Assembly (NCBI GenBank): GCA_019054805.1
Contig: JAHQIY010000028.1
Location: 62,001-126,000, forward strand
Length of the DNA stretch: 64,000 bases
Source of the DNA: Brachionus manjavacas
Lineage: Eukaryota > Rotifera > Eurotatoria > Ploima > Brachionidae
Direction: 5' to 3'
Under the pieces are notes generated by a model. The model ran no database searches. It saw only the letters and a program-made list of their open reading frames with translations, and was not told the origin of the DNA. The first letter of the stretch is position 1; each line of letters opens with the position of its first letter. This document shows, in pieces, positions 21,405 to 59,700 of this stretch. The position numbers and the translations under genes were made by a program.

Positions 21405-24160
21405 TTTATTTTATTTAATAAATAATTTGAGGTAAACCTCAGGCCACACAGAATGGAACTAAGTCCTTCTATTCAGCATAGCGATTGAAAAAAATAAATA
21501 TCAAGAAATTACAAAATTGAGTAAAATACATTTAAAATAAGTAAAAAATATTGACAGATATTGTTTAAATAATTAGAGTTTTTACGGATAAAAAGATCAT
21601 TTAATAAAAGAAAAAAAGGAAAAAAAAATAAAAAAAAAATTTTGATTTGGCATTTTTAAAAGGTTAGCTATTATTCTTTTGACTTAACACGTTCTTAAAT
21701 TCTTCATAAAGTGAGCGAAATTTTGGGTTTAATTCGGACGAATTAGTTGAAAAGCATTCCAAGTCTTTGGTTAGTTGCTGATGTTCTACTCGCTTCAAGA
21801 GGAATTTGTCTAAAAGTAGTTTTGTTCTAGTTTCAATCATATCAATTTATAAATTATTGTGGATGTTTGTAATTCTCGTCTTCAGTGGGAAAATCTTGAT
21901 GTGTCTCATAATTCGGTTTTGCATTTTTTGTAGATCATCGGTAATTTTTTGAGTCAAGCTTGAAAGAGGAATAAAAGCGTAGTCAAATTGTGAGCGGATA
22001 AAATTTCTAAATATGATTTTGCTTAGGGGAATTGAATTAGAGAGTTTTAGTCCTTTTATCCTCCGAATAAGATTGATTTTTGACATGACTTTTTGCTTAG
22101 ACTTTTTTTTTTTTAAGTTTCAAGGTTAATCAACAGGCTAGTGCCCTTATCTATTGAAAAGACTGATTAACTCTTCATTTATTTTAAATTTTGTTTCATA
22201 GTTGTGTCTGTAGCCAGCTGTAGTGAAAACCGAGAGGAAAGTTTTGTTGATGTTTATGACAAGTCCCCATTTTTTGCAGTAATTTTTTAATTCGAAGAAT
22301 GCTTAGGTTTAGTGTCTTTTCAGTTACTCTTAGAGATTTGTGTGAATACCAAATACATAAGCCATCTTTGGAAAGACACTAGCAATGTCACTAAAAAACA
22401 GTGAAAAAAGAGTAGGTGATAAGCAGCTTCCCTGTGGAACTCCAGTTGAGATTTCGAATTCTTTTGAAAGTTTATTGTTTACTGAAACTAGGAATTGTCT
22501 TTTAGCCAGGTATTGTCTTATCCATTCGAACAGGTACCAATTTAATCCTAATATTCTAAGTTTGAAAAGAATTCCACTACGGGATGTTTTATCAAAAGCC
22601 TTTTCTTGGTCGAAAAAATTGAACTTGTGTATTCTTTTTTGCTGAAACCAATGATTATTGATTGACGAGGCGAAATATTTGATCTTGAGTGCTCATGCTC
22701 TTCCTAAATCCAGATTGACACTGTGGAAGTAATCCTTTGGTTTCGATCCAGTTTTGAAGTTTGCAATTAATAATTTTTCCCAATAGTTTAAAGATGCAAC
22801 TTATTAAGGAGATTGCCCTTTATGAATTCAAATTTTCTGGTGGTTTGTCCTTTTTTGGAATCATGATTATTTTAGATATTTTTATAACTGGGAAGGAATA
22901 TGGCCAATTTTGATTGTGGCGTTGAAGAGGTTAAAAATGCGTTTAAGAAATTTGTGAGGACAATTTTCTAAAATTCTATTGCTTACCATGTCGATTATTT
23001 ATTTTATTTATTTGTTTGTTTTCTGTACCGAGCTAAAGCTCCTTCAGAATAAATTAAAAATAAAATAAAAAAATAAAATAAAAATAAAATTAAAGTTAAT
23101 AAAATTAGATAAAAAAAAAAGAATCAAAATAGAGTAAATGTCGATACCAGGAGCTGATTTTAAATTGGTTGAGTTAAGGGCATTGAAAAATTCGCATCTG
23201 TATATTAAGGCTTCATTAATTGCTTGCGGTAAAGTGATGTAAGTATTCGGTATTTCGATTTTAGGGTCGCCGTTGAAGATTTTGTTTAGATTTGTCCAGA
23301 TAGCGTTCGCTATTTTCAAGTCGTCCTCTAAAAAAGTGCCATTATCGCTTTTGATTTTTAAAGTTATCTCTGCCGCCTCCTAGCAAGTATTCTCAAATTC
23401 TTTCAAGGCTTTCCAACATTTGGACTCGTTTTGATTGAATTTAATTAGATCTTTGATCTGAACATCTAATTTTTTGCTTTTATTCGTGCTAGTTGGTTTT
23501 TTATTCGGCTGTTTAATAAGTTGAAAAGCTTATTTAGTACAGGTGATGGGGTCTTGTGTTTCAATCTTTAGATTTGATGTTTTAATTTTTTTTCTTTTAC
23601 TAAATGCTTAGGAATTGGCTTCGCACAGATTGCTTTACATTTGAATGTGGTCGTTTGAGTACAATCTTCTAATGTCGAGTTGATTGTGTTAATAATATCT
23701 GCAAATTCAAGGTCAATATCACTACTACTATTAGAAAGGTCATCTTCGATCGAAAATTGCTCAAATGGTTTTTGAACTTTAGCCAATCTATTTTTTTGAA
23801 TTTGAACTCTTTGGATTCTGCGAAAATATTGTCAAAGGTTGTGATAGTAAGTTGATAGTCACTTATTTGATTATCTGAAACTGTATGTGAGTTAAAAAAA
23901 TAACGCATAGAATTAGAGCAAATTGAGAGGTCCAGAACGTTTTTGCCAGGATTAAATGTATTTTTTCTAAAACTTCGCCTTTTGGGTCGGTTGACTGACA
24001 GTGCCGCATTGAGTTTTTTGCGTTGAAATCACCAATTATAATAAAATTTTTGAATTTTTTGGACAGGTGCACGAAGAGCTCTAAATTGAGCCGGGTGCAT
24101 GGACTGATGTAAAACGAAAAAATAGATAATTTGTTGTTATTTTTTAGTTCCATTTCTAAC
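21405..24160 (-). mobile_element. Jockey/I-like non-LTR element with endonuclease and RT, dead
   Basis: Minus strand. An APE endonuclease piece (IIIGDFNAKNSMRHC, about 24010-24060), linker, RT finger/palm with stops (SAPGID about 23150, AFDKTSRSGILFKLRILG about 22560-22610, STGVPQGSCLSPTLFSLFF about 22400-22455), RT C-terminus (FRNFIRSQFDYAFIPLSSL about 21940-22000, then LYEEFKNVL about 21690-21720), and a 3' end with hairpin TGAGGTTTACCTCA (21428-21441) before an AT-rich tail. YADD has decayed. A younger element sits at 22996-23137. This family is distinct from the GAGC-hairpin family. Confidence 0.85.
22996..23137 (-). mobile_element. Nested 142-bp hairpin-tail copy with 8-bp target duplication
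   Basis: Only the 3' terminal ~140 bp of the GAGC-hairpin family (hairpin 23030-23041), flanked by ATGTCGAT at 22988-22995 and 23138-23145. Removing it and one target copy joins the host RT frame exactly (SAPGID + MVSNRILENCPHKF), which proves both borders. Confidence 0.93.
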
Positions 24161-24192
24161 CCAATTCATTTTCATGAATCAGATGGACTTAA

Positions 24193-25037
24193 TAATTAAT
24201 ATAAAGGAAAATCATTTTTAAATAGATACATTAATATTGATTATAAAGACTTATATTCGAAATTAAATAAGTTTTTAATATAAATAAATGAAAAATTATT
24301 TTTATAAAGAAAAAAATACTAAATTAAAGATAATACTATTTTGTTAAATAATTTCATAAAGTGAGTAAATGAAAAAAATGTTTTTATAAAGTAAATAATA
24401 TTTATCTAAATAGCCAATTTAATCTCTTGTTAATGCACCAGTATTTGATTTTGCTGGTCTACCTCGTCTTTTAATATGAATAAATTCTCTTTCATTTTCT
24501 CCAAATGGATGATTTGTTAACTTACAAAAAGCAATATAATGCTTACATATAGCATATTCTAAAAAATGCATACAACTACAATATTTTGGGAAAATTTGTA
24601 TGTGATATTTGTATGTATTGTTATAAAATCTGTAACCAGTATTCAAATCATGATTTGTTTGATAAGCTTTGGATTTTGGTATTGCAATATTAATGTATTC
24701 ACTCACATCTCTTCACCAACGTTTTCAATTAGAGTTAACCATTTAGAATTACTTGAGCCACTTGATGAATTGGATGAATCATCAAAATTTTCCATTATTT
24801 ATTTTTTGAATGTAATTTTTTAGAAATCAAATGAAATTGCTTTAACAAAAAATGAATCCTTTTATAATGCTCATAACTTTCTTTAGAAAAAATTAAAACT
24901 CTTTAGGATTCTATCCTTCTCTTTATGTTTGTATTTTTTTCTTTAAGTTAGTATTTTTTTTCTATAAATAAATATTAATTCCTTTAAGCTTTATAACTTA
25001 TTCTATAGTAAAATATTTTTTGTCTTTATATTAATTA
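24193..25037 (-). mobile_element. Possible MULE-derived short element
   Basis: It surrounds the SWIM-finger reading frames. TAATTAATATAAAG at 24193-24206 has its exact complement at 25024-25037, a possible inverted terminus. This is weak evidence because the sequence is AT-rich, and no clear 9-bp target duplication is seen. Confidence 0.4.
24419..24795 (-). pseudogene. MULE transposase remnant: acidic N-terminus joined to SWIM finger and AT-hook
   Basis: ATG at 24795 opens an acidic, Ser-rich segment (MENFDDSSNSSSGSSNS...) that stops at about 24705. In another frame, 24706-24419 encodes a SWIM zinc finger (CSCMHFLEYAICKH, CxC...CxH) and an AT-hook (RRGRPAK). SWIM fingers and basic RGRP tails are typical of the C-terminus of Mutator-like transposases. 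The DDE core is missing. GTGAGT at the junction (24701-24706 on minus) could be a donor, so a spliced product is possible. Either way it is a non-autonomous derivative. Confidence 0.6.
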
Positions 25038-25317
25038 GGGAGCCAATCAGATGATTTGTTATGTCAACAACTGATCCAATCAAAGAATTTTTTATTCAAT
25101 TTGCTGCACCACCTCCTTTGCGGTTGAGTCTGTCGGAACGAAATATGGTGAAATTAGTTATTTAAAGGGTATTTTTAGGCTTCAAAAAAGTTTCATTTAA
25201 ACTGATAATGTCAGGATTTGTAATATCAATTTAATTTTGAAGCTGACTTGATTTGATTCACTTGCTATTGATTGAATGTTTAAGTGAAGAATTTTTAGCT
25301 TACTATTTATCATTGAT

Positions 25318-25545
25318 TCAATACAGTACCATGCCTTGAGAATCATCAATAAAGCACCCATTTGCTGTTCAAACACAGAACTTCACCGAAACTTAAAAAT
25401 TGCGAAAATTGTAGAACGCATCAACAATCTCCACTCACGTTACTTGATTAAGGCTCTAAATAACAACGAGTTGATCGATGAAATATTTGACAATTTAAAT
25501 CAATTAGAAGCTCACTTTGAAGTATATAGTCTTTTCAACTAGACT
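25318..25545 (+). mobile_element. C-terminal tip of a Jockey-like RT
   Basis: 25336-25542 reads MRIINKAPICCSNTELH... and HSRYLIKALNNNELI, the usual final segment of Jockey-clade ORF2, and ends with a natural stop. No upstream RT, so it is a 5'-truncated insertion; the ATG is incidental. Confidence 0.6.
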
Positions 25546-25679
25546 ACATTTTTTTTTATTTTATTCAATTTTTTCTACTTTGTTTAAGTTGTAAAAAAAA
25601 CAAAAATTTTTTTTCTTTTTTCTCTAGTTTTATAATATTATTCTAAATGGTGGATGTAAGGGTAAAAGCTCGAATCCCA

Positions 25680-26840
25680 AAAAATTTTCTGAAATAAATA
25701 ATCTAAACTTATTAAAACTGAAGCCCCTCTATATGAATGGGTAAAAAATTTTCTAAATATTCGTAAGTTCTTTGTAAATCCCAATAACTTTGAGTCTGAT
25801 CATGTTAATATTGAGACCGGTGTCCCTCAGGGTTCGGTAATTAGTTCTCTTCTTTTTTCAATTTTTATCAACGATAAACCTAAACAAACCTCAAAAAATA
25901 CCTCATACTCTCTCTTGCTTGCTGATGAAATAGTCACCTTTTTCATTTTCAAAAAAATATGGAAACATTTCTTAGCAGGTAAAAAGTTACCAAAAAAAAT
26001 TGAAATTTAGTTAAAAAAATGGAGGCTTAAGATGTCTCCTGAAAAATGCAATTATACAATTTTTCAGGGAATCCCTCCAAAAAAACAAAAGCTAAATTTT
26101 AGTCTTTTCGATAAGGAAATTCTATTTAGTGACTGTCCAATCTTCCTTGGGTAAAAATTTGACAAAAACTTATGCTTTAAATCACATATTGAATTTATTC
26201 GATCTAGATGTCAAGACAGGATAAATATAATTAAAATCCTTCCACACAAATCTTGGAATTTAAATAAAGAAACTCTATCGAGTATTTATAATGCTCTAAT
26301 AGGGTCTTTAATTGATTACAGCTTCTTCATATTTAGATTAGCTTCACATACTAATTTTCATAAATTAAAAGTACTCCAAAATATATCCTATAAGGCGATT
26401 TATCACCTCCCATATGAAACACCCTCAGAAATCTTCTTATTTCTTGAAAATCAAAAAATTGACACAATCAAAATCAGGTTTAACAAAATCTTTACAAGAA
26501 CTGTTTAAAACTGTTTTCTCTTCAAAAACGAGTTAATTGGACTCATAAAAGGACTTTTAGGATTTTTTTGTTTAGAGCTCAAGAGATCCTGAAAAAAAGT
26601 CTCCCTTATCAATTTCTGTCCATGAATTTCCACGGGAGTGACTTGCATCAGCCAAATCTTTCAAATTGTCTAGAGGCTTCTCTTTCTTGATATTCCCATT
26701 TAACTATTTATTTTTTAAATATTGTGAACCCAATTTTTTAATACCTTATATCTATTTCACTTTCTTTTGATATACGAACAATAGCTAAAGGAGTTTCATT
26801 ACTCAAAGTCTATTTAAATAATAAATAAACAATTAAAAAA
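25680..26840 (+). mobile_element. Jockey/I-like RT, one frame with few stops, GAGT-hairpin family
   Basis: From about 25700 the plus strand reads EAPLYEWVKNFLNIRKFFV, ETGVPQGSVISSLLFSIF, SYSLLLADEIVTFFIF, WRLKMSPEKCNYTIF, IIKILPHKSWNL and SLIDYSFFIFRLAS, with only a few in-frame stops. The YADD box is LADE, so this copy is catalytically dead. It ends with hairpin GAGTTTCATTACTC (26792-26805) and an AAATAATAAATAAACA tail. Confidence 0.82.
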
Positions 26841-26845
26841 AAAAA

Positions 26846-28180
26846 GTTTAATTTTTAGAATTTTTTACTCAAAGTCAAAGTAAAAAAATCAGAAGCTTAA
26901 CTGACTCTTGACCAATTCTGGAATTATTTAAATTAAAAATCTAACATAAATATATCTTATTTTTAAATAAGAAAATATTTGTCTTCAAAAGATTAGTTAG
27001 AAATTTACTTTAAATAATTGGAAAATTGTCAATCAATTCTCAGAAACTCAATGGATATAGTTTGCTTAACAGACAATAAATTGAAAGAACTTGATACTCG
27101 GAAAATATCCTAATAAAAAACACGATAGGTATTAGTATATACTCACAGACAAAACCATTGTATAGTGCTATCAATCTGGAATTTGTTTCTCAAATTTATA
27201 TGAAACATAAATTATTTTTTCTGGGACAAATTTTGAACAATGATTTGAGCAGGAAACTCTTTTTGGAGATTAAGAAAATGCCTTTAATTACTTCGAGAAA
27301 TGATACTTCGTTTGGCAGACAATTGGGAACATTGGAACAAAAGATTAGTGTTGAATGTCTAATATGAAAAAAAAATCTTAATTGAATTTATAAATGAGCT
27401 GTTTTTATTTTCTTGGTAAAATTGTAATTTGTATTTTTGTGTTTCCTTTTCACGTGCCAAAACAGAGGCTTAATTGACTCAGTTAAGTTTTTTGTTCATA
27501 AAATTAGAATTGCATTAGATAGTAATTAAACTTTTTACTTTTATTATGAATACTTGAATCTTTTACTTAAGCCTGCAGTTTCTTAATTATTTAAATCTTT
27601 TTCTCTTTTTGTCCCTCTTGTATGAAATCTGACTTTAAAATTTTTATAAAATTTTAAATGGATTAATTATCTGTGGAACTTAATGCGATTTTATCAGATT
27701 TTTTTTTGATTTTTTGATTTTCTTTGTAAAATTGTAATTTGTATTTTTTTGTTTCCTATGAGGCTTAACATTTTTTTTAAAATAAATAATATAAATAATA
27801 ATCCAATAATTTGTCAAGGTAAGGTTCAAAACCCAGGCAATTGAGTTTTAAATTTTCATTTAAAAAATGACGTCTTAAGCTTTTTCTTTTCAAAAGTTAT
27901 GATTAAAAATGTGAAAACATTTTTGTGTAAAGTTTAGATGACTTGGTATTGCTCATTCAGATAGAAAAAATAAACTGAAGTTAGGAATGATAGACGGGTT
28001 AATTGTATTCAGCTCAGCTTTTTTATTAAGTTATTAATATTTACATTAAAAATTTAAATTTCAAAATTAAAAATTTTTTGAATCATTATTAAATCATTAA
28101 AATAAATTTTTATTGTAATATATTTTTTTCAGATTTTTAGCATTTGGGATTCGGTTATGCTTGGCTATCTTAGAATTTTT
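26846..28180. other. Unassigned AT-rich DNA
   Basis: Nothing firm. The open frame 27158-27367 (SQIYMKHKLFFLGQILNN...) is less AT-biased than chance and may be an element fragment. A ~40-bp segment around GTAAAATTGTAATTTGTATT is repeated at 27417 and 27725. Confidence 0.35.
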
Positions 28181-28770
28181 TAAATAAAATAAACTCTGTT
28201 TCGATTTTGGTTGATAATTTCACTTTCGGACTCCTGCAATCGATTGAAAATAAAGAACTCGATTACACAAAATCCAAAAATGAATTTCTAAATGAAATAA
28301 AAGAAATCCTAAAAACTCGGAATAAACTAGAAATTGGGAAAATAAATGAAAAAATTAAAGAAATAGATGATGAAAAAAAAATTATGGCAAAGAATGGCAT
28401 AATTGAGTCAATCAAAACATGTTTTGCAATGATAAATAACAATGATCAACATGGAAAAACACTTCTCAATCTACTAATAAAGGCATTCTAAAAATCACAG
28501 GAAAAAAAAATAGTTACAAATTTTTGAAAATTAAAATAATTAATTGAAAAATTAGAATCTTTTATACTACACATTATGCAAAAATTAAATCTCTTTAATT
28601 TACAATTTCTTAATATTTCTTTTATCGAATTTAGATTAAAAAAAATAATTAAATAGAAAACAATTTCTAATTTTTCTTTTTCTTTTATATTTTAGAATTT
28701 TACTAGATCGCCAGAATTGGCGCTAAATGAAATAAATAAATAAATAATAATTTATATAAATAAATAAATA
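28181..28770 (+). mobile_element. 3' end of a non-LTR element with CGCCA hairpin
   Basis: An open frame at 28207-28491 without an early ATG encodes a charged helical segment (IKEILKTRNKLEIGKINEK). 218 bp later comes hairpin CGCCAGAATTGGCG (28709-28722) followed by AAATAAATAAATAA tails. The tail layout is that of the other non-LTR families here. The open frame is of unknown function and may belong to the element. Confidence 0.5.
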
Positions 28771-28969
28771 AAGATTTTTTGTTCGCTAAAATGGGCCAAT
28801 TCTTTTAGCTCAACTATCTTAAATTGGGGTTGGTAATTTTTGTGACAATTATTATTATTCAAAAAGGTTAAGGAAAGATGCGAAAGCCATAGCTTTCTTA
28901 CAGCCCAAAAGTAAAGAAAAGTAAAAATTTTATGTTTTGAATAAATTTTAAGTTTTTAGTTCTAATTTT

Positions 28970-29680
28970 TTTTGAATTTTTTCAATATGGTGGGAATAAA
29001 ATTAGAATAATGTATGGGGATATTCATCCAAACAAGTTGTTCTTCGTTTTTTTTTGTGTTGTTTTGATTTATAATTTTTGTTGATTTGATTTTGGTCAAT
29101 TATTTTGTTTATTACTTGATGGTTTTCTCCATTGAGGATGATTTTGTCGTAGTATCTGTGAGTCAGTTTTAAAAGCCGTGGCTTTACCATTTCGATATTT
29201 GCTTGTGAGTGAATATGTTCAGTGCTGTCCATGTAATCGGAGCTAAGACAAAGGCGAATAGATTTGTTTTGGAAGATCTGTAGACGGTCAAGTGCATTTT
29301 TGGATGTGATAATTGCAATATGACTGTATTCGAAAATGGATAGTGTGCATGTTTTACAATAATTTAATAATAATTTTGTATTTGATGACCAGAGTCGTCC
29401 TTTCAAGGCCTTTATTACATTTTGTCGATCAGTGACTTTGTCGCTAATGTATTCAATGTGTTTCATGAAGCTTAATTTTGGATCGAAAATTATACCAAGG
29501 AGTTTTGGATATGGATCAAGAGCTATTTTATGGCCATTAAGAGCTAAGTCTATTGAATACAGTCGCTCGTACGATTTTCTTTTTCCAGCAGGTGTGAAGA
29601 CTGTGTAGGTAGTTTTGCTTGAATTTAGTTTTAAACACCATTCTTCGCGAATAAATTTTATTAAATTTTATTTTGTGTTA
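28970..29680 (-). mobile_element. Well-preserved C-terminal half of a Jockey-like RT
   Basis: 29466-29002 is an uninterrupted minus-strand frame (ALKGRLWSSNTKLLLNYCKT, LDRLQIFQNKSIRLCL, ending PHTLF-stop). Upstream, 29467-29650 continues it (WCLKLNSSKTTYTVFTPAG, LLGIIFDPKLSFMKH). The RT palm itself is missing, so it is 5'-truncated. It belongs to a family different from the hairpin-tail copies. Confidence 0.82.
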
Positions 29681-29689
29681 AGATGATCA

Positions 29690-30460
29690 AACTTTTTATT
29701 CTAAAAAAATATTTTAATTTTATGAACAATTGTTCGCAAAGTTAAATGAAGAAAAAAATTAATTAAAGTTTATATTTAACAGTATAAGAAAATTTTTTCT
29801 TTATTATCCACAAATTTACTTTAATTTTTTGATAATAAAAAATGAAAAAGTTATTTTTTCGGGTTTATTTCTAAGATGATTTTTTCGGCAAACACAAACT
29901 ATTCTGTTTGAGTAGTTTGATGGTCAACCGGCCGAATTTGGCCAAAAATCTAATCTCCTCTTTTTCTTCAATTAGTAATTTACGTCTAATTTTTAAGCTG
30001 GTAGCATCTGTTTGAGTCGATCTTGACTGGAAAATCATTTGATCTTTGATTAATTGTAAAAATATTTAAAGCTCAATTTTGAATAAAAAGTGGATTGAGC
30101 TTGGAAAAATTTCCCCAAAAATATGAATGGATTAGACAAGCTTAAGAAAATATGGTCAAAAATAAATTTAAATATTTACTTTATTACGTAAACTATCTTC
30201 AAGGATTATGTTGGGTAAAAAGTTTCCTTAAATCTCGAATTTTAGCATTTGTTGATCAGCTTTTAAATTTGAAAATAATTGATACTTCTCAAAAGATATT
30301 AATCCTTTTATTTAATGCTTTTATAACGTAATAGAGTAAATATTTAAACATATTCTTGGTCATCTCTCTTAAGCTTTTTAATCCAACCATTTTTTTACTA
30401 TAAATTAAATACGCTTTCCACCTAAGACAATATAACTAAGAACAAAATTTGAAAACAGCC
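29690..30460. other. Intergenic upstream of the chitin-binding protein gene
   Basis: AT-rich. It contains the presumed promoter and 5' UTR (a CTATAAATTAAATACG stretch at 30400-30414 is a possible TATA region about 50-60 bp before the ATG). No other feature. Confidence 0.35.
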
Positions 30461-34399: not shown

Positions 34400-36345
34400 T
34401 ATATAAAATTGTTTTTAATCTAATTAGTATCTTTGAAAAACCAATCTTTTGCTTTTGATTTTCTACCTCGTTTTTTCTTCATACCTATAGTTTTGAAACT
34501 AAAATCGATTTCGACTAACTTGGTTTTAACAGCTGAAGAAGCAATGCTTACATAAATAATCCTCAAAATAAGTTTTACAAGTACACTTACTAAATTGCCA
34601 TTCAGCTCTATTTAGCTTAACTTTTTTGATACTATTATTCAAAGTGAAATACTGGTCGAAATCAAATTGAGTTCTGTAACATTGGCAATTTGTTAATTTG
34701 TTAATTCACATTCGATAGTTTCGTAATACATTTCAAAAGATTCATCGATTGTTTCATTTTCGAGACTAGATAAAGATCGTATACTTAATAATTGTTTTTT
34801 TATCTAAATTCTCTTGTGTAGCCTCCCAAAGCCTACTACTAACTGATGAAAAATAAAAAAAAGTTTTTAATCTGTCCACCTCCGAAGACCTGTCAAATGA
34901 CCATGTCTCGACTATGAAGCTAATCGACTTCATAAAACGAGATAATTGCTCTCTTTCTCGGAGCGTGTGAGTGTCTTTCAATACTTTATTTGTTGACTCA
35001 AGAGCGTTATTTGTACTTGGAAAAGCTGGTGCAATACCCAATTACAATGCTTACTAACTATCCACTCTTTTTTAAAATATTTCAAAAATTTGATTAATTC
35101 GCTGTTTTTTTTTCTAACTGTTAAGTCGGCTTCCTCTTCTAGTCCCCATTTATCAAAAAATAATTTAATATTCGAGTTGAAATTATAGACAGAATGAGAC
35201 AATTTTATTTTATTAATGTCTTTTATCAAGTCTTCGTCGATAGGATTCGATTTTGGAAATATTGCACGTTCAACATGTGCCCAGCAAACTAATCTACATG
35301 CATTTGGATAGGCATTTTGAATTGCAATGGTTATTTCGTCGGCTGCATCTGCTAGAAAATATTGAATTTCATACTCTTTTTCAAATATCTCATGTATTTT
35401 TGTCTAATTGATTAAAAAAATTAATTAAATAATTACTTTTAAAGTGTGAAAATTTACCTTTATAGAATTAATGATAAAAAAAAATCTTCGTTGTTTTGTT
35501 ACGTAGTAATTGCTAAATATGTTGGATGAAATTGTTTATTTTTGTCAACATGACCACACATTATTACAGGATGGCCTTGGTATACAAGCTGATATGTTGC
35601 ATCAATACATGCAAATACATTTTTACTGGCTAACTCCAATAAGTAAAGAGTCGACACACCATTCGAATATATTGAGACGATTCTTTGTTTGCCACTACTT
35701 CATAATTAACTATAAAACCTTTGTTTGGATCACTCGGAAATGCCGAGTTTGCTTTGCAATAGTCCAAAAATTCTTTATAAGTAATTGCAGGTTTACCTTG
35801 TTTTTTTCTTTTTGTTCTTGCAATTAGATTTGTGATTTGTACAGGACTCGGTAAATTAGTAAAGCCTTGTTTACGTAAACTATATATAATATTCAACGGC
35901 TGTGTTATTCGAAGCTCATACAGTTCAAATATTTTCTCTTTTATCTCTATACGTAATCTTTTGTTACTGTTTGCAATGAAATCATGATTGTGCTCTTCTT
36001 GGTTACGGAGCATATTAATAGTTTGACAGTTATTCAAAATATGAAGATGCATCATTGCTTTACAATTTATGTTTAAGCTGGATTTAAAGTATTGTTTTAG
36101 ACCGTTTTTGCCACCTTGTTCCTTTGTTTTTTTCCAATTTTGTTCAATTGACTTAAAAGCTTCTTGATAGTTTTCAAAAACTAATTCTAGACTCCAATAC
36201 ACACGACGTCTTTTACGAGTCCTATTCGGCTTGTCAAATTGACAATCTAATTCTTTCGCTATTTCTTTTGAATTTAAACATGGTGTAACAGCGTCTTCAT
36301 CATTGGAGTAAAAATCATCATCACTTTCAACGTCAATCATTTTTA
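34400..36345 (-). pseudogene. Mutator-like (MULE) transposase, broken
   Basis: Minus strand, ATG at 36340 (MIDVESDDDF, acidic). In order: a zinc-finger-like N-domain (CQTINMLRNQEEHNHD), helical linker (LNIIYSLRKQGFTNLP), then the MULE DDE core: IDATYQLVYQGHPVIMCGHV (about 35530-35610), DKNKQFHPTYLA, DAADEITIAIQ...CWAHV (about 35260-35370), a Ser/Thr helix with NALESTNKVLKD (about 34960-35010), and a SWIM finger CTCKTYFEDYLCKH (about 34550-34600). Frames change near 35650-35690 and further on. 35404-35459 looks like a proper intron (GTAAATTTTC...CAATTAG), so part of the breaks may be splicing. Cut-and-paste transposition was its role; this copy seems dead. Confidence 0.82.
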
Positions 36346-36721
36346 AAAAGTTTATTTTTTATTTTTTAATAAATTTGGTTTTTAATATTCATAGAGAGTT
36401 TTAAGATTCAAAAAAATATTTTATGTAAATGAATTAATTTTAACCATGTAGTGATTTTTTATTAAAATGAATTTTTTTTGATGAAAAAAAAAAGAAATTA
36501 GTGCAAAAAAGAAATTATCCCCACTTTTTTTTCTAAATAAAATTTTAAATTTTTTTAATTTCATTAATCAAAAAAATAAATTAATTACACATTTTTTGGA
36601 TCGTTCACCCATTATGATTTTTAAAATAGTCTTTTCAATTGATATAAACTTAGGGTTAAATTGTTAAATAGGTTTATTGAATTGTTTTATTAATAAAAAT
36701 TTATACAAAAATTTAGGCAAC

Positions 36722-39899: not shown

Positions 39900-40830
39900 T
39901 TATTAAATATATAATTGAGGGGAAAGCCCCAGGGTTCGTCCGAATGGCGCAAGCCTTCGTTTAAATCCTCTAGTTTGAAAAGTTTTTAGGTTTTTACAAA
40001 ATTAGATTAAGTTAAAAGTTGAATTATACAAAAAAAGTAAAATTAATTGAAACAAATTGTTTTATAGCAATATACAAAGGTTAATTATTTATTTGTTTTC
40101 TGTACCGAGCTAGAGCTCCTTCAGAATAAGTTAAAAATTAAAAAAATAAAATAAAAATGAAATAAAATAAAAATTAAATTAAAGTTAATCAAATAAGATA
40201 AAAAAAAAAAAAAAAAAGAATTAAAAAAAAGTAAATAAGCTAAATAAATGAAAATTAAGAATATATAAAATTGGAAAAGATTGTTACATGTGGCTCATGT
40301 TTAAATAGTTCAAGTTTCAGGAAAAAAAGAAGAAATAGTAAGGTAGCAATTACACAATGGAGTTGGGTAGTCAATATATCTTGATTCGAAACCTTCTTTG
40401 TATTCCTTCACCAGTCTTACAACCAATGGAATAGAATGACTCAGTCCTGCCCCAACATATCTCTCACTCAATTCAAAAAGCCGATTCAAAGGTTAAGATA
40501 TGATAAAGATATTTAAATTAGGATTTAAGACAGATTAATTGTCTTTATTGGATTTGAATTCGTAGAATAAGTCAATCGGTGTTTTGAATCTTTTGGGATC
40601 TGAGTGGGAAACAGTTTGCACGTATGCGTGAATTTCTTTGGCTATAAATTCTTGTTTTGATTTACTTTCTATGAATTTGACAAACAAGTGATTTGCCCTT
40701 TCTTCGATTGTGTCAAGATTGTGTCAAAAATCATTAAGATTAATAGAATCTGACGGAAGGAATTAAGTTTGAAGTTAATATGTCTAACTTTAGTTTCAAT
40801 TATATTTTTATCATTAGACTATTTTTTTCT
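39900..40830 (-). mobile_element. Non-LTR 3' end, GGGG-hairpin family, interrupted
   Basis: Minus strand: the RT C-terminal tip (EERANHLFVKFIESKSKQEF, ending FYEFKSNKDN-stop, about 40545-40700) resembles the end of the element at 21.4-24.2 kb (LYEEFK near its stop). The 3' terminus has hairpin GGGGCTTTCCCC (39919-39930) and an AT-rich tail. A 402-bp element of the GAGC-hairpin family is inserted at 40085-40486. Confidence 0.75.
40085..40486 (-). mobile_element. Nested 402-bp hairpin-tail copy with 10-bp target duplication
   Basis: Tail, hairpin GAGCTCTAGCTC (40107-40118), A-rich part and the conserved 3' UTR block (40285-40480), flanked by CAAAGGTTAA at 40075-40084 and 40487-40496. It is 5'-truncated and non-coding. 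Confidence 0.92.
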
Positions 40831-42034: not shown

Positions 42035-43335
42035 TTAATTAAATAAATAAATATTGGCTCGAGCTTTCGCTCCTTTGCCAAGCTTAAATAAAATGTTTCA
42101 AAAAAACAAAAATAAGAAATATAAAATAAAATTATTAAATACGAAAAAAAAGAAAATAGAACATAAAAAAAAACGGAATATTTACAAAAAAATAAAAATA
42201 AAAAAGTAAGATTTTTTTTTTTTTTTTTTTTTATAATTACAAAACAAAAAAAAAATATAAGACAAATTAGGCAATGTTTCTTTTAGTTATTTTTTCTTTT
42301 ACTGCTACACTTTTAGGTTACCAAGAAAAGTATCGAATTTAAGTTTATTTATTCTACCTCTTTTGAATAGTTTGTATTCGTTTATTAAATCATTAATTAA
42401 TGGATTTTTATTCTGAATCGAATCGCTTAAGTAATTTTCATTTAGTTCCCTATATCTATCCTCTAGAACTTTAATGCCTGCTATTCTATGAATGTTTTGA
42501 GTGTTTTCCCGATAATTTAGCTTAAAAATTACCTTAATAGCACAATTTTGAATTCTCTGTAAATTTTTTAGATTTGTTGCAGACAATCTTGGTAAAATTA
42601 CCGAAGAATAGTCTAGAACCGATCGTACAAGAGCAAAGTAGATTTGTTTTAAGGTATTTTTAGACAATTTCCACGATTTATGCGAAAGAATTTTCAAGCA
42701 ATTAAGTCGCTGCTGGCAATTTTTTTTAAGAAATTCTACCTGATTTTTGAAACTCAAACTATGATCGAATCTGATACCCAAAAACAAATGTTATCTGAAG
42801 GTGTTAGGTCTCTATTAAACATTTTAAACTTCAATTTTTTGGTCAGATTTTTCTTCGTACTTGAAAAAATTATATAATTGCATTTTTCTGCTGCCATACT
42901 TAAGCGCCACAGTGAGAGCCATTGTTCTATGTTCCTAATATAACCATTTATCATTTTTTGAATGTTATTGTACTTATTAAAGATAAAATAAGACACTAGA
43001 TCGTCCGCAAAAAGTAGCGAATAACTTTTGTTTTTATTATATTTAGTTGGTATGTCATTTATATAAATCGAAAAAAGTAAAGGACTTAACACTGCTCCTT
43101 GTGGGACTCCTGCTTTTATATCGTAAAGTTTTGATTGTGTATTTCCAATATTAACGAAAAATTTCCTATTTTCTAAAAATGCTCTTAACCATAAAATAAG
43201 ATCAATCGGTATCTTCATTTTGATCATTTTATAAAGAAGACCTTTATGCCAGACCTTGTCGAATGCTGCCTGAATATCGAAAAAAATGGCACAAACTTTC
43301 TTTTGATTATTTATTAAATTGATTATTTGAATATT
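42035..43335 (-). mobile_element. Best-preserved Jockey/I-like RT copy, GAGC-GAAA-GCTC hairpin
   Basis: Minus strand, palm to C-terminus: IQAAFDKVWHKGLLYKM (about 43225-43280), KAGVPQGAVLSPLLFSIYIN (about 43060-43120), SLLFADDLVSYFIF (FADD intact, about 42975-43020), then one frameshift near 42780, then FLGIRFDHSLSFKNQVEFLK to TFLGNLKV-stop (42787-42305). The 3' end has hairpin GAGCGAAAGCTC (42061-42072) and an AAATAAATAA tail. It is 5'-truncated inside the RT, with very few lesions, so comparatively young. Confidence 0.88.
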
Positions 43336-47376: not shown

Positions 47377-47411
<35 letters not shown>

Positions 47412-47490: not shown

Positions 47491-47549
47491 TCTTGTTCTT
47501 TCTATTTCGTATGAAATTTAGTTGGAAACTATAATAAAAAATTCTCATA

Positions 47550-50700: not shown

Positions 50701-53700
50701 TATTTTCATATTTACATCTTTAAAATATATCTTTTTATTGAGCTTTAATAGGTTTAAAGTTTTAATTAATATATGTTAAGTACTAAAAGGGTAAAAAAAA
50801 AACCTTCAAAAAATATGTTTTTTAGATAACATCAAGTACCATAATTATTCAAAGTATGCTAAAAAAATATAATAAATATAAAAATAAATGTCTCTTAATA
50901 ATTACTTACTTATTTGATTAAAAAAAAATATTTATAATTTTAAGTTTAAATTTAAATTATTCATAAATAAAATAATTTCAAATACAGGAAATTTTTTTTT
51001 GTAAATTCGTATTCGTAGCTTGTTCTTAACAATCTTTACAGATCGATTTAAAAACCTTCTCTCCGACAAAAAGACAACACGTAAATTGTTTAAATTTGTC
51101 ACAAGAAAAGCTCGATTTTTTTACGGAAACAAATTGAACTTTTTGCTATTTAACTAAACGAGAAAAAAAAATTTAATTAACATTATTTTTAAAATTTATT
51201 TAGAATGGATCCAAAATTTGTCTTTAATTTCTTTAAACCTGTTTATCGCATTATTGTTTTAAAAGTCGCCTTAAAGGCTTTCATTGAAATAAATAATAAA
51301 TAAATAATTTAAAATAAAAAAATTCTTGATCACATGGCTTTGAGAGGAACATTTTGGCATTAAACACTTGTTGCATAAAAGATGCCGAAAAAAGATAATA
51401 AATCTCTTTTTTGTAAATGAATGTTTAGAAAAATTGACACAATTGGTACAATTCAATATAAAATTAATATAATATATCATTTTATATGGTTTAATTTTTT
51501 TGTTTGAAAAATAATAATTTTAAGTTAATTTTGCAAGCATTTTCATATTTGAAATTAAACTCTTTGGTGAAATAGAATGAGTTTAATTTTTGTTTGGAAA
51601 TTTGAAAAAAATACTGAAAATTCTTTTTTAACTTTTAAACAATTCATTCATTTATTCTTCAGAATAAAAACATTTGAAAAATCTAAAAATAAAGTTAAAT
51701 AATAAAAAATAAAAGAAAAATAAATAAAAAGAAAAAAAGATAAATAATTCACTTAGATTAAAGTTTTTATTCAATTGTTGAAAAATTGGGCCTAGTCGGT
51801 TAGGTAAACCATTGTTCACTTATTATTTGAAAAATTCTTGGTCTCAAGTTTTGTGAACTTTTGGTTCACCCATTTTGTTTGTTCAAAATATCATTAGGGT
51901 GAACCAAAATAGAATTAAGTGAACAAATTGAATAAAGCTATTTAATAGAATTCTTAATTCTCGAAACTGATATAAAAATTAGTTAATAATTTTTTTTTTT
52001 ATTTGAAGGAGCTTTAAAAATAGCTTAGCATTTGCTCTGATCTGGTTGACTTGGAATTACCCTTTCAACAATCCCAAATATCCAAATGCTTTTTCTACTT
52101 GAATATTTTCCTTTCAGCATAAAACAATAAAAATTAAAGAAAATTAAAATTAATTTTTCACCCTTTAAGAGTTTGACTTTGGGGAACATTTATTTTTTTC
52201 GCAGAATTTTCCTTCTCCACCCAACTTTAAATTTTCTATGTAATTATTCTTTCTTTCTTATTTTTTATCATTACATTAGCTTTTTTCCTCAATAGATGAA
52301 AAAATTTCAAAATAGTTGAACAATTTTTAGTTAATGTTATGGTCAATTAATAGTTCATAAAACATGAGAACAAGAATTGTTCCAGTAACAGGTGAACCAT
52401 AGTTAACCAAGCGACTAGACCCGAAAAACTTGGTTTTCTTATAAAATTTTGACTTTAGAGATAATTTACTTTCGTTTGGGGCACTTAAACAAAAACCCAA
52501 TTGATAAAAAATGGATAACAGAGCGTAGATAGTTTTTTAAACTACAAATATTATCATTAAGGATCATCATATCACAAGCCTAAAGTCAAAATTTATAAAA
52601 AAAAAAAAAGTTTTTCATGTTTGCATAATTAACTTAAAATTATTTTTTTTGAAACTGAAAAAATTTTTTGAAACATCGCACTTTTTCAATGTTAATTCAA
52701 CATTGGATACATTTTGTAATTCAAACACAAAAAATCAAACCATATTTTTTTACAGTTGTTATTTTGTTATGGGAATTAATAAAATGTATTAAAGTTTGCA
52801 TGTCATGTCTTTACTTTATTTTACCTAAAAATAATACAGAATTTTTGGAGGGTCCAAAAATTTTACATTTACTTTTTTTGATGCGCATGAAAATAAAAAT
52901 ATTTTTTGATTTTAAAGTACCAATAAAGGTTTGAGTGTTAATTTTACTAAAATTTTTAAAACATTAAATTTTATTTGATTTATTTGATATCAAAATCATC
53001 AGGAAAATTAAGTTTTAAGAAACTTCAATTTGCCATTAGAAAATATTTCTCTTATGCCTGAAAACACGGTCTGAGTCCGTGGCTAAATTTTCTTTTAAAT
53101 AAAATAACAAAACATATGAAAATGTTTAAAATTATTTTTTTGTTTAGCAAAAAATCTGCTAGACCAAGATAGCATAGAGAGTAGTCAAACAAGTTTTTTA
53201 CTCAGCCAACAGCAACAAAGCCAAAAACCGTTTAGTTCCCAGAATAGTCTATTTCACGAGGAGGATCTCGGCTTCGACCCATTAGGTGAGTCATTAAACG
53301 CTTTGCAGGACCTGATGCAGAGCGAAAATTGCCTGAACAGCAAAAATGGTCACACAAACGGAACGAACTATGCGCCGTCAAGACCGGCCGCCCCTTCGCT
53401 CAACCAAAACACCACTCTAAATCCAACCCAATTGGAATACCTTCAAAAGCAACTGTTTCAAAAATCAGATCTTTCACACACGACCTTTCCGCACCCGTCA
53501 CTAGAGTCACTGCTGTCGCTGCAGCACAATTCGCTGCTGGCCAACCCGCTAGCAGCGCCCCTTCCCAGTCTGAACTCTCTGCTGCATCTGAACCACAAAC
53601 CGAACGGCATAGTGCCTCCGCCGGGCTTTGCCAACACAAAACTCTCGTCATCATCTACGCCGTCATCTAACTCCACTTCGACAAATTCATCCGCTTCTTC

Positions 53701-56700
53701 GTCAGTGAACAACAGCGCCTCGTCAACGCCATCAATGAACAACTTTGTCCAAAACAAGAATATGGGCTCGAACGGCAACCTGCATGCTCTCAAGTCGATA
53801 TTTCCCAATGCCAACATCAGCTTCGGCAACAATTTTGTTCAGTCGAATCAAGCCAACTCGTACAGTAAAAATATGGCCAGCTCGAATTCGAGCAGCTACT
53901 GGCCGGACGATCCGGCCATTATATCTCTCACCGATCACATAGCCGCCGCCAACAATCCAACTTGCGGCATCGGTGGTCTTAGCGATTTTAGTTCGAACCT
54001 GAGCCGGTCGCTGTCGCCCGCAATAGGCATCAACGGCTCTCAATCTAGCGTCAAGTCTTCTTTCTATGATAATTTTAGTTCGTTACAAAATTCTTACCCC
54101 AATTATCAGAATTATGAAAATATTGCCAAGCTACAACAGTTGCATCAGTTCATGATGCAGCAGCAGCAGATGAACAACAGCGCCATGGATCAAGCTCATC
54201 AGCACCAACTTCAAATGATCAAATCTTTGCAAAGTAAGAATTTTTTAAGTTTTATGAAAAATTTGTTTAATGCAAAAAAATGAGAATAAATGCATCAAAA
54301 ATTTCGCCCCTTTGCACTAAATTTTATTACACAAAATTTTAAAATTCGTGCTGTGACATTTTTTCACATTTTTTTTTATTCAAATGTTTTAACACTAGAG
54401 GAGAGGAAAAATTTTTTTGCTTTTATTTTTTTGTTGAGTCAGCAATTTTGGAACATTTTGAACTAATTCTCAATTTTAATTTAATAACATAAATTTTGAA
54501 GGTGAAGTCGGGAGCGATTTTGTTCAAATAAAACATCAATAACTTTTTTTAATTTGAATATTGGTTTTAGAAAAATTTATTTAAAATTAATTAACAATTT
54601 GTTAAAATTTAAAATGGGTTTTGGGCCATTTATATTTAATGACAAACCATCATCATGATTGTTTCTAAGTCACAGTTTTAAGTCTAAGTCAAAGTTATGA
54701 CTTGCACAAAATTTTCTATCAATACCTGCTTCATCTGGACCAGTTGAAAGAATTATTTTCTAAATCTGGTTACATTTACTGAGCACATAGGTCAAGATTA
54801 ACGGCCAAGAATTTGGAAGCAACTACTTTATCTTAATATTTAAAACCCAAATGTGTGAAAAAAAGTAAAATTTTCATGCATATACTTACGATAACTAACT
54901 TTAATATTTGAATATGGTGCTTTTATAATTGTCTTAATCCATTTTTTTAGATTACATAATATTTATTAATTTTTTTACAACTTGAAAATAATTTTTAATT
55001 AAAAAATTAAGAAAAGAAAAAAACAATTAAATTCATTAAAATTCATTCATTCAAGTTTTTTTACAAGAAATGTTGATTGTACAGTAAGTCACAAAAAGTT
55101 AGAATCAAGTTGAAAAAAATAAAAATATTGTTTTTTTGTAATTAAAAAAATCGTTAACTATGAATTTTTTTCAAATAATAGCTTTTTTGAAGAAAGACTA
55201 CCTAAAAATCTGACAAAATAGAGAAAAAATGGGTAAAAATAAAATAACTGATCATCATTGATGGCAAATTGCAGGTTTTTTGATAAATCAGACAAAGACT
55301 GAAAGAGAAATAGCCGAGTTAACAAAATAATGAACAAAAAAACAATCAAATAGTAAAAAAAGTTTGATTCTAACTTTTTGTGAAATACTGTACAGGAACA
55401 TTCATTAAATCATTTAATCAAAACTTATGAAAAAAAATTTTTAAAATCAATTTTTAAAAAGAATTTTTTCAATATAATAAATAAAATAAATCAATCAATT
55501 AAATGATCAATACTTATTTCTTTTTCTTTTACTTTTATTATTCTGGCAGCGGAGCAACAGGTAAAACCTTGTTGGTATCAAATATGGATTTACTAAATAA
55601 TTGACTTGACTTTAAAATAAAAAAAAATTTGAGTCATTGACTTGACTTGACTTAAGACTTGTGACTTAAAAACAAGTCTGTTTTTATTAAAGTAGTAAAT
55701 GTAGTAAAAATAAGGCTTTGGCAGTTCTTTGCAATCACACCAGTTTCTGTACCATCAAGTCTTGCTTTGAAGGAATTTAATGAATTTGCTTCAACAACAT
55801 TTTTTGGTAAACGGTTCCATTTGTTAACAACTCTGTTTGTGATTAAGTTGAACCGTGATAGACAATTTTTAATAAGTTTTCTTGTTACCATTTTTGCATG
55901 ACCCCTAAAAAATAATTATTTCTTTTAAGGTACCTGATTTGACTTGCCAATTTAACAGTTTCTAGACTGTTAACAATTTTTAAAAACTGAATCAAATCGC
56001 CTCTTCTTCATCTTGCATCCTTAAGTTTTATTCTATTCAATCTTTCTTCATACTCGAGATTCTTAAAGATTGGAATCAACCTCGTAGCTCTACGTTGTAC
56101 CTTTTCTAATTCCTTCTTATCTTCTTTCAGGTATGGATTCCAAACACTAACTCCATATTCAATAAGAGATCTTACCAATAAGGTATACAGTAACTTAACT
56201 ACATTGGCGTCCAAAAATTTTAAATTTTTCCAAAAATTGCCAAAATCTTATTTGCTCTGCCAGAAGAGTAGCTAACATGTGCACTCCATTTTAGATAATT
56301 TTGAAAAAAACACACCCAAATCCTTTTCTAATTTTGTTTTTTCTAATGATTCTGTTCCATGTTTATTAAAAATTGTGTAGTCAAACTGAGGATTTTTATT
56401 TCCAATATGCATAACTTTAAAAAATGCCCGATTTTAAATTTATTTTATTGAAAATAATTTACGAACTGAAATCCTTAGTTACTTACTGCCAGAATACGCT
56501 TTGTTTTTTGGACCTTAATGATAGAAATCGGTACAAAATTTTTTTTCTTATTTAATAAATGGCTACAAATTATTTTCGTAGTAAAAATAATTAAATTCGT
56601 AGCAAAAAAAATAAAAATAAAAGCAAAAATTCATTAGTAAAAGTAGCAAAATAAATTTATCAGTAGTAAAAAAAATAAAAAAAATAGTAAATTATTATAT

Positions 56701-59700
56701 CAAATATTTATTAATAAAAAAATCCACACATTACTTAGAAATGTTGTTTAGTGTTATTTTATGGATTTTTTCTAGGACGGCCTCTTTTTCTCGGAGCTAA
56801 ATTTGAAGATGTTGTTGGTTGTACAATAGTTTGAATGTCATTATTAATACTTTCGGCTTGATCTTGATCATTATCATTTTCATTTGAAAGCGGATCTTGG
56901 TTGATTGATTGAGCCATTGAAATTGGAAATTCGTAGTTAAAACTTTGTAGAGCTGGATTAATTGGACCAGTCGAAATACGTTGTACCAAAGCAGGTGTAG
57001 CTTGTTTAAGTCTTCCTCGCTTTTTATTATGCAGCATGATGATTATAAACTCTGCTTGCTTTTCTTGCTTTTCTTGCTTTTTTAACGGGAATCTTCTATT
57101 TCGGTATCATTTTCGGTGTCCTCTTCATTTCTTTGGGTCACGAGAATTGATGTAGATGAAGATTCGGTATCGCTCATTTTTAGTTTTTAAATTTTCAGAT
57201 TTGTATATTTAAATTCCAAAATTTTTTTACATTATATACATTAATAAGTGATAATTGAGTAGTGTTATTAATAAGTGATATATCAATTATATTGAGTAAT
57301 TGATAATTGAGTAGTTATCAATCAAAAATTAAATTAATTTATATTTACTATTGAAAAAATACTTTTGCTACTAATTAATTTATTTTACTATTAACAACCT
57401 TTTTTTACTACTTTTTTATTTAATTTACTACGTGTAATATTTGCTACGATTTTTTATTAAATTTGCTACTAGTTTAATTATTTTTGCTACTGGATTAAAT
57501 AGTAGCCTTTAATAAATTTAAGCTTTTTTTATTATATTTATTTGTTCATCTATTCAGATTAAAAAAATAGGAAAAAAAACTTAATTTAAGAATTTAATGT
57601 AACATAAAGTATAATTGAAAATTAAAATTGTTAATTTGAAAAGGCGATGACAGGTGCTGTATGTTTAAGTATTGAATAGTTCAGTAAAGGAACAATTACA
57701 CAGTGGAGTCGGGTATAATTAAAATGGCAAGATTTTTCAATAAATCTCAAAGTAAAAAGGCCAAAAAGGAATTGTTTTTATAAATCAAACAGGATAATAT
57801 TCAAAATATCTCTTTGAATAAAATTTAATCTTTTTACTCTTATGCAAAACTTTAATTTTATTATTATTACTTCTCCTTGTGGAGGTAAATTAGAATTAAA
57901 TAAATAAATTTTCCTTTTTTTGAGCACTCAAAGCTAATAATGATGATAATGATCAGTTGTTTTTTTTCCAAACCCAGTTATTAAAATTGGACTCAGAATT
58001 TTCTTTCACCAAAAATCATCATTTTTTTAAAATTTCTCTTTGCAATCTAAAAATACTCTTTATTAGAGAAAAAGCTTTTTTTAAAAAAAAAAAAAAAAAA
58101 AAATTAATTCCAATAGAAAAAGAAATTTTATATTTGATTCGAAACTCCAGATTTTTACAAATTTTACAAACACAAGTTTATTCTTTCAAGTCTACTCAAA
58201 AAATTGCCAATTTTTTTCTGATCTGGCAAATTTTTAAAACCTTCCTTACGTAAATAATAAATAATATTTATGACGCAGTTACTTTAATATCAAACAGTTG
58301 TATAATTTTGTCTTTAATCTCTTTTCTCAATGGTTTAGACGAGTTGATAAAGCCATGATAATGATCCTCTTGGTTTCGTGGCATATTTGGTCTCAAACTA
58401 AACTATTTTATTTTATTTTATTTTAACTATAATTTTTTATTTTTAACATCGCCTACAAGGCGTTCATTGAATAAATAATAATAATAAAAATAATATTGCC
58501 ATTCTGATTTTCATCAATACATTAAAAATGCATTCAAGTTAGTCATTTCGAATTAGTGGAACATTTATTATATTCTTTTTTTTTAATATTCATTCAATGT
58601 CTCTATCATTTTTCGAAATTAAATTTAAATTCAAGAAGTCAAAAAAGTATTTTTATAAAAATGAAATTTTTTGGTGATAATAGAAAAATTAGTTATAAAA
58701 AAAAATAAAAAATCAATTAACGTCTCAACTTTTTTAAACAAAATATTTTTCTTTGTTTAATTTTTATTTAAAATCAATTGTTCAAAAATTTATTTCTTAA
58801 TTTTTAATATCTTTTTATAAGTTTTTCTCTCGCAAAAGTCGTCTTGATCTTTTGTTCAATTCTCAAATTATTTAAATTTTTTTATTCTTTTTACTTAATT
58901 ATTTGGAGTTTGAGTGCATTCATATTTATACACGTCTTTCTTTCTTTCATCAATAATTAATTAATTTTTTGTTTCGTTCTTTTCACTTTAAAGGATTTTG
59001 TAAGCTGGTGTTTAATTTTTTTGATGAAGAAATTATTATTTTATTATCTTTTTTTAAATTACGCAAAATTTTCAGTTTTTTCTCAAGTTATTTTTACAAA
59101 ACGTGCTGTTTTTATTTTTTTGCTTAATTTTACTTAGATTTTATTGATAAATTGTTCAAACATTTAAAAGAAATTTATTTAAAAAATAGACAACAAAGAT
59201 TTTATGTCAGTTAGGTTATCAATTTTAAAATTTAGAATTAACTAAAAAAAAATTAAATGACCTTGGTTATTTCTTGTGACTTGAAAACTCTTTATCTCAA
59301 ATATTCATAAAAAATATACTAGTGTCATTCTATTTCTAACACTTAGATTTTTTTAAATATAAAAGTTGATTTTTTACAGCTAAAAAATTTAAGTTTACCA
59401 GGAATTTTTTTTGGATCTTTCTTAAAGGTTTTTTTTATTTGGACGCGATCACTCTTATATCAAAAAAAAAATAAAATATATAATATATTGAATTAAGTTT
59501 TCCATAAATTTATTAAAGTATAATAAAAAATGAAATTACATAATATTTTTAATAAAATTCAATAAAATCAATTAAATTCTTACTATTTCTTAATGATTTA
59601 TATTATTTAATAAAAAAAAATCATTAATAAACAATAAAAATAAATAACAAAATTTTTTAATTATTTTTTTTTTGTTTAAAGTTATTAATAGGACAATAAT

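Follow-up and report, generated by a model that had tools for sequence, protein, structure and literature searches.

Hairpins lying shortly before the terminal tails of repeats in a 64,000-nucleotide stretch of the Brachionus manjavacas genome (G000:C28:62001-126000, hereafter the window; the genome assembly comprises 114 Mb in 61 contigs) are probably the 3'-terminal RNA structures of several lineages of long interspersed nuclear elements (LINEs), each of which would be bound by the element's own protein in the choice of its template. The case is carried by their position and sequence, by their linkage to reverse transcriptase (RT) genes, by copies truncated at the 5' end with the 3' end intact, and by pairing that is kept across families. 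An initial annotation of the window had listed 12 such hairpins. All of them exist, displaced by at most one or two bases, but at least three groups (families A, F and C; E; and B) had been lumped together, and because the stems of these groups could not be aligned with each other, a single covarying stem for all 12 sites was rejected. Pairing is kept despite changed letters between families inside homologous groups, namely in the lower stems of A versus F versus C, in E1/E2 versus E3, and in one pair between B1 and B2.

Eight of the 12 sites (10784, 19010, 19975, 23030, 40107, 42061, 21428 and 39919) are 3' ends of minus-strand copies, as called from the tail after the hairpin, which reads on that strand, and the other four (20913, 26792, 28709 and 58450) belong to the plus strand. 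Family A comprises the six GAGC sites with AAAT-type tails, together with two further copies near 12727 (degraded) and 60191.

Linkage to reverse transcriptases, tails and truncated copies

The A-type core AAGGAGCNNNNGCTCG occurs at 2641 sites of the genome (1347 + 1294), against five (2 + 3) for the pattern reversed, which rules out chance for this main hairpin, and the C pattern AAGGAGTNNNNNNACTCANAG at 192 sites, against none in the reversed control. Of 38 RT loci, 33 are followed on the same strand by a hairpin of the A, F or C type, at a distance of 366-1207 nt downstream from the RT match; the set is made up of the eight best RVT_1 matches and the 30 best matches to the F RT of the window, that is, of top-scoring matches and not of a random sample. 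One of these loci (L062) has a C hairpin with an A hairpin behind it, and another (L068) has two A hairpins. In a tree of this genome's RTs only, the A, F and C sets, labelled from their downstream hairpins, form separate branches with 49-59% identity between sets. Identity to A/F/C is 28-39% for E, 31-41% for H and 19-28% for B, in some cases over partial domains, and B, by these values, belongs to a distant RT lineage. Endonuclease and RT domains were found within one A open reading frame (ORF; L005), and a scan of A, F and C ORFs, some of them partial, revealed no RNase H. An APE-type endonuclease and an RT without RNase H are the rule in the Jockey clade or superfamily, into which, given these domains, the elements may fit better than into the I clade.

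Tails are AAAT- or AAT-type repeats in A and B, TTTATTTATTTAAATAAAGACGTTTATC followed by ATC-type repeats in F, A runs or CAA repeats in C, and AAT, AAAT or A runs in E, so that the common tail type proposed in the initial annotation holds for A and B, while F and C differ and E is mixed. The tail begins 5-7 nt past the lower stem in 35 of 48 A copies (eight have no recognisable tail); the hairpin-to-tail spacing, expected to be constant, is tight within A and is not kept across families. Near 97 tails, folds below -7 kcal/mol were obtained for 30 upstream and 12 downstream sequences. This contrast carries a bias, since 30 of the 68 loci in that set had been chosen for having the hairpin.

Of the 46 A copies, 42 are distinct, some loci overlapping; colinear matches to LINE 3' ends, 53-936 nt long and with variable 5' ends, were found for 45 (41 distinct), and one distinct copy has no LINE match. 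As had been claimed, short copies retain the hairpin, the shortest match of 53 nt including it. No short interspersed nuclear element (SINE) with the same 3' end was seen among the A copies examined, 41 of the 42 distinct ones being LINE fragments. Target duplications of 8-13 bp adjoin the tail in several A copies. Examples that do not consist of simple repeats and seldom occur in the control are ATCGACAT (the 23023 copy of the window), TTAACCTTTG (the 40107 copy), TGACATGTCA (L015) and TTAGCATTTTAGT (L030). Flank matches of at least 9 were found in 12 of 45 A copies, and flank matches averaged 7.5 in length, compared with 6.6 in controls; since several of the long matches are tail-like repeats or duplicates, the duplication signal is clear in individual copies and modest overall.

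Structure and covariation in families A, F and C

Families A, F and C share one plan, with a variable but paired lower stem, an AAG internal loop, an upper stem GAGY/RCUC and an apical loop of 4-6 nt. Folded singly, eight of these ends gave a lower stem of 5-7 bp, an asymmetric internal loop, an upper stem mostly of 4 bp and a loop of 4-6 nt, with z scores of -1.7 to -3.6 (the top of one, L026, is weaker). The lower stem is mostly of 5-6 bp; internal loops are of 3/4, 4/2 or 5/3 nt in A, F and C, with AAG or AAAG on the 5' side and GGUA, GA or AAA on the 3' side; and the apical loop has 4 nt in A and F, being GAAA in the latter, and 6 nt in C. Between families the lower stems change letters yet stay paired, with UUCUG/CAGAA and AUCUG/CAGAU in A, UUGGC/GCCAA in F, and AAUGGC/GCCAUU (Ca), AAAGGC/GCCUUU (Cb), AAUGGU/GCCAUU (Cc) and AAUAGC/G(u)CUAUU (Cd) in C; in some A subtypes only three lower-stem positions pair. 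The last pair of the upper stem is C-G in A and F and becomes U-A in C.

Lower stems were compared over 39 A, 4 F (one of them mis-registered) and 54 C rows, the bulged base of Cd being omitted here and in the tree-aware null and retained in the covariation test of C alone; the A/F/C-type search gave 65 distinct rows, chance matches included. Of six lower pairs, on average 4.5 form in A, 4.5 in F and 5.3 in C, against 1.5-4.2 when arms are swapped between families, the swaps between F and C (3.5 and 4.2) being closest to native pairing. With loop offsets optimised for all, the stem score was 12.7 for own arms, 10.4 for swaps within a family and 5.9 for swaps between families. None of 20000 arm permutations of 10 representatives, which are not independent, reached the own-arm score, and with five representatives only the identity arrangement among 120 reached it. 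Under the tree-aware null for the 97 A, F and C rows, none of 400 simulations attained the summed pairing observed (p=0.0025, the floor), and two lower-stem pairs had mutual information (MI) at p=0.002 and 0.007; for C alone, with the bulge removed, summed pairing gave p=0.022.

The conservation of the upper stem in these rows is partly imposed by the search pattern, and a search for A with the flanks fixed and the stem free offers a less constrained view. It found 1829 sites, and among the 100 listed 82 stems are intact, with 18 broken pairs and five one-sided changes. The first two loop positions of A have entropies of 1.18 and 1.15 bits, against at most 0.35 in stem positions, and 15 distinct apical loops occur among the 100 listed sites.

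Group E

The clearest covariation of the groups studied is that of E, whose structure spans about 50-55 nt. Seven representatives fold into an outer stem, an inner stem and an adjoining second hairpin (z scores of -1.6 to -4.3); the outer stem is longer and closes the GAAGG-containing inner hairpin, and the second hairpin follows directly. In an alignment of 10 representatives out of 42 sequences (A3), 96.7% of cells are paired, 17 cells are changed on both sides against 6.2 when shuffled (0/500), and the covariation score is 0.350, against 0.169 when shuffled (0/500) and at most 0.129 when slid; RNAalifold, unaided, recovers the structure plus one extra pair. For 41 of the 42 copies (L178 could not be anchored), summed pairing reached 16.66 of 18, the highest value among 400 simulations of the tree null being 16.30, and three pairs had MI at p=0.002, 0.007 and 0.047. 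Ends of this group lie just downstream of RT matches, on the same strand, at C10:3390672, C1:4258160, C13:2434927, C17:1107614, C5:5621886 and C2:1943686, six links which were picked by eye among 80 listed places and not by systematic comparison. A tie of E to the C24 RT was ruled out, as that RT is A-like, and the E copy there is therefore probably a separate insertion.

Groups B, H and D

The B ends fold as short hairpins (z scores of -2.4 and -2.6). With flanks fixed and stem free, B1 gave 277 sites against 3 in the control; five of the 100 listed were excluded as not B1-like, and in the remaining 95 there are 62 intact stems, 11 one-sided changes and 31 broken pairs, with variable loop letters. 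B2 (CGCCA/UGGCG), searched with its own flanks, gave 57 sites against 5 in the control, 27 of which were excluded as not B2-like, and 17 of the other 30 are intact. The top pair is U-A in B1 and A-U in B2, a single compensatory difference. The B ends were linked to their RT lineage through the sequence upstream of 20 B copies, of which at least L143 and L149 have LINE-like C-terminal ORFs, with a sub-threshold RVT_1 match in the first and none in the second; the RTs upstream of them, L157 and L158, score 78 and 97 bits against the RT profile. Genome-wide, the matches to the B2 pattern repeatedly include an unrelated repeat, which has ATCTTTTCAAATACTTCTAAATGAATTAA and variants.

The CGCCA/TGGCG stem at 28709 is real, but it belongs to a plus-strand B2 copy that adjoins the tail of the minus-strand H element RT (29005-29667) and is not the end of that RT, whose own hairpin is probably GAAAGC-UAUG-GCUUUC at 28882-28897. 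The GAAAGC/GCUUUC stem is found in four of six related regions fetched (L110-L113, with one mismatch in L112) and not in L109 or L114, and only four sites genome-wide fit the H flanks (0 in the control), two of them with an intact stem. By eye, the regions downstream of L160 and L161 show no clear hairpin. Another candidate for the H hairpin, at 28785-28809 (GCTAAAA/TTTTAGC), was discarded, not being found in related copies.

A repeat family D, at 57869 (+) and 45855 (-) and also in L016, L040 and L060, has ACTTCTCC....GGAGGTTAATT-like ends followed after a short distance by AATAAATAAATAA-type tails; these ends form short hairpins of weak fold (z scores of -0.7 to -1.1).

Proposed template recognition and its alternatives

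In the mechanism that we favour, the RNA just 5' of the tail would fold into a lower stem, an asymmetric purine-rich internal loop, a near-invariant upper stem and a variable apical loop, and the element's own protein would bind this structure and so select its template for target-primed reverse transcription. The protein would read the internal loop and the upper stem, and not the apical loop, while the tail would serve priming and would be exchangeable between families. Recognition by the RT, and template selection through the hairpin, we infer by analogy with UnaL2, ZfL2 and SART1 (PMC4176376, PMC3747384, PMC5135761).

A number of results weigh against this mechanism. Few independent changes underlie the covariation; in E they are mostly a single split, E1/E2 versus E3, and the independent events are accordingly few. 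Two of five measures in E, the pairs changed on both sides (5 against 3.7 when shuffled, 47/500) and the further pair types (9 against 9.5, 432/500), are not distinct from shuffles. Summed pairing in A alone has p=0.13 under the tree-aware null, the outermost lower-stem pair forms less often than under that null, and in C alone, with the Cd bulge kept and counted as broken, pairing and covariation stay within the shuffles (79/500 and 95/500). The GAGC/GCTC stem that the initial annotation had listed as covarying hardly varies within A, where no compensatory change occurs among the 100 listed of 1829 sites; nor does any occur in the 95 B1-like sites among the 100 listed of 277, or in the 30 B2-like sites of 57. 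Internal-loop sizes were fixed family by family from the folds, and the last letter of the A loop, mostly A, is conserved like the stem (0.33 bits). A covariance model built from C found no A or F hairpin in 34 sources at E values up to 10, so that the homology of A, C and F rests on a short core and on RT kinship. Spacing and tail type vary among families, and the hairpin claimed for the 3' end of every recognisable RT, which is found at most of the 38 top-scoring loci, is lacking at five of them (L001, L050, L053, L057 and L066).

The hairpin could instead act on the mRNA of the element, in forming its 3' end, in its export or in its stability, and not in the choice of template. The usual polyadenylation signal, AATAAA, is located after the hairpin in C and F and within the tail in A, and a 3' hairpin could aid 3' processing. 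We nevertheless regard this explanation as unlikely, because the structure differs by RT lineage (A/F/C, E, H and B), which would follow if each protein recognised the end of its own element, and because experiments on UnaL2, ZfL2 and SART1 favour RT recognition (PMC4176376, PMC5135761). Somewhat less probable still is that the letters alone are conserved, by shared ancestry or by a constraint at the level of DNA, and that the folding is incidental, as could be argued from the upper stem, which is near-invariant within A, B1 and B2 without compensatory changes among listed sites, and from C alone, which does not exceed shuffles. However, the lower stems of A, F, Ca, Cb and Cd have different letters and are still paired, the three helices of E are kept through two-sided changes, and the representatives of A, F, C and E show the same local folds within each group. 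That the short copies are SINEs or miniature inverted-repeat transposable element (MITE)-like elements, in line with the matches over only 53-250 nt and the AT-rich flanks of many A copies, is highly improbable and was rejected on the colinearity of 41 of the 42 distinct A copies with LINE 3' ends and on their variable 5' ends.

Comparison with known 3' structures

In the window no match to an Rfam family attained the gathering score; two short B stretches gave only sub-threshold matches to other families, and the UnaL2 family (RF00436) was absent from the matches in the window (E<=1) and in these B stretches (E<=10). The known LINE 3' stem-loops of UnaL2, ZfL2 and SART1 are described as having a loop of 5-7 nt, a stem of 8-10 bp and an asymmetric internal loop or bulge 4-6 bp from the loop (PMC5135761), and the A/F/C hairpins follow this plan, the 6-nt loop of C being within the stated range and the 4-nt loop of A and F just below it. 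As in LINEs of the stringent type, a stem-loop stands shortly before the terminal repeat at the 3' end. Pairing is kept by compensatory change between families and in E, and not within A, B1, B2 or C alone, and apical loop letters conserved in the manner of UnaL2/ZfL2 were not found in A, F and C.

Elements of the L2 clade (eel UnaL2, zebrafish ZfL2-1 and ZfL2-2) likewise have a 3'-terminal stem-loop with a bulge or internal loop, followed by a tandem repeat; their stem-loop is needed for retrotransposition, and the stems of ZfL2-1 and ZfL2-2 are exchangeable (PMC4176376, PMC5135761). Their apical loop is essential (GGAUA in UnaL2), whereas here it varies in letters and size and the internal loop and upper stem are near-fixed. 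The monocot L1 hairpin (LINE1-1_ZM and SINEs) also has a variable stem with compensatory changes, and nucleotides outside this stem are conserved (PMC3747384), but it belongs to another RT clade, has its conserved letters in the apical loop and 3' flank, and is shared with SINEs. In bird CR1 a hairpin, proposed as the RT binding site, again precedes a short repeat, an 8-bp microsatellite (PMC5729268, PMC8665684). Both the hairpin and the repeats of CR1 are different from those described here. SART1, of the R1 clade, inserts at telomeric repeats. Its 3' recognition is stringent, with an essential stem-loop of the 3' untranslated region (UTR) that the present hairpins resemble, and its poly(A) end is like the A runs of C copies (PMC3747384, PMC5135761). 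The R2 3' UTR, whose several hairpins are recognised by the RT (PMC5135761), shares with group E the presence of multiple helices, and its structure is of about 250 nt against about 50-55 nt in E. Clades for which 3' stem-loops or shared tails are mentioned include L1, L2, CR1, RTE, Tad1, R1 and R2 (PMC3747384, PMC5135761). Jockey goes unmentioned in the part covered of the first of these, a review; in the second it is included in an ORF2 alignment, and such regions are suggested as possible stem-loop recognisers. No description of a Jockey-clade 3' hairpin was found in the literature searched, from whose reach subscription papers mostly fell outside.

The general principle is already known from other LINEs, and what is distinct here is the largely free apical loop together with the near-fixed internal loop and upper stem. 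A bolder idea, which we put forward tentatively and hold to be rather doubtful, is that one ancestral 3' recognition element, made up of a lower stem, an AAG-type internal loop and a short upper stem, may have been kept across the A/F/C, E and H RT lineages (about 28-41% identity); the letters recognised would be those of the internal loop and upper stem and not those of the apical loop, with its tail (repeats of AAAT, ATC or CAA, or A runs) swapped freely; the cores likened are AAG in A/F/C, GAAGG in E and AAG-AAAGC in H. If this were true, the mode of recognition would be unlike the loop-reading L2 type, and the co-evolution of RT and hairpin would be traceable within one genome. Detailed knowledge of how a LINE protein chooses its own RNA is available for few elements, and the thousands of 3' ends of related families with the same plan and differing lower stems, loops and tails are natural variants which could separate the parts read by the protein (internal loop and upper stem) from a lower stem needed only for pairing and from a tail for priming.

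Features of the window

Table 1. Hairpins and associated coding remnants in the window (positions are those of the window)
Position	Strand	Feature
10777..10801	-	Family A 3' hairpin, CUG-AAG-GAGC-UCUA-GCUC-GGUA-CAG
12720..12744	-	Family A hairpin, degraded; absent from the initial list
19003..19027	-	Family A hairpin; copy aligns to ~930 nt of LINE sequence
19968..19992	-	Family A hairpin, lower stem AUCUG/CAGAU; candidate target duplication AAAGAAACA
20907..20931	+	Family A hairpin, short 5'-truncated copy
21428..21479	-	Family E1 3' structure: outer stem, inner stem, adjoining hairpin UGAGG/CCUCA
22333..22692	-	RT remnant upstream of the E1 end; grouped by the tree with the E2-linked RT L156
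23023..23047	-	Family A hairpin, truncated copy of ~116 nt; flanks ATGTCGAT at 22988-22995 and 23138-23145
26780..26814	+	Family C (Cd) 3' hairpin, AAUAGC-UAAAG-GAGU-UUCAUU-ACUC-AAA-G(U)CUAUU
28709..28722	+	Family B2 hairpin, CGCCA/TGGCG
28882..28897	-	H hairpin, GAAAGC-UAUG-GCUUUC; probable true 3'-end hairpin of the 29005-29667 RT; absent from the initial list
29005..29667	-	H element, C-terminal part of RT ORF; without a Pfam match itself, it matches LINE RT ORFs at other genomic places
39919..39970	-	Family E3 3' structure: three helices, the last being the GGGG/CCCC hairpin
40100..40124	-	Family A hairpin; target duplication TTAACCTTTG (element orientation)
42054..42081	-	Family F 3' hairpin, UUGGC-AAAG-GAGC-GAAA-GCUC-GA-GCCAA
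42308..43419	-	RT of the F element ending in the 42054-42081 hairpin
51267..51279	+	Second B1-like copy; absent from the initial list
58450..58462	+	Family B1 hairpin, CGCCT/AGGCG
60184..60208	-	Family A hairpin; absent from the initial list

The window has a GC content of 27.6% and contains an ATP synthase-type ORF, an alpha/beta hydrolase ORF and numerous LINE remnants. The element at 1756-4815, which we take to be CR1-like, has its RT ORF at 1756-4086 (+) and, at 4750-4815, the hairpins AGTGTGC/GCACACT and GCTGG/CCAGC followed by a (CTA)n tail; its terminal 75 nt recur before a CTA-type tail in L025, around 2397. By eye, the ORF at 63521-64000 (+) recalls a Penelope-type RT and the two ORFs at 34981-36358 (-) recall a MULE-type transposase, with no Pfam match in either case. 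A tandem repeat at 17549-18232 (259-bp unit, 2.6 copies, 98%) lies at the end of the ATP synthase-type ORF.

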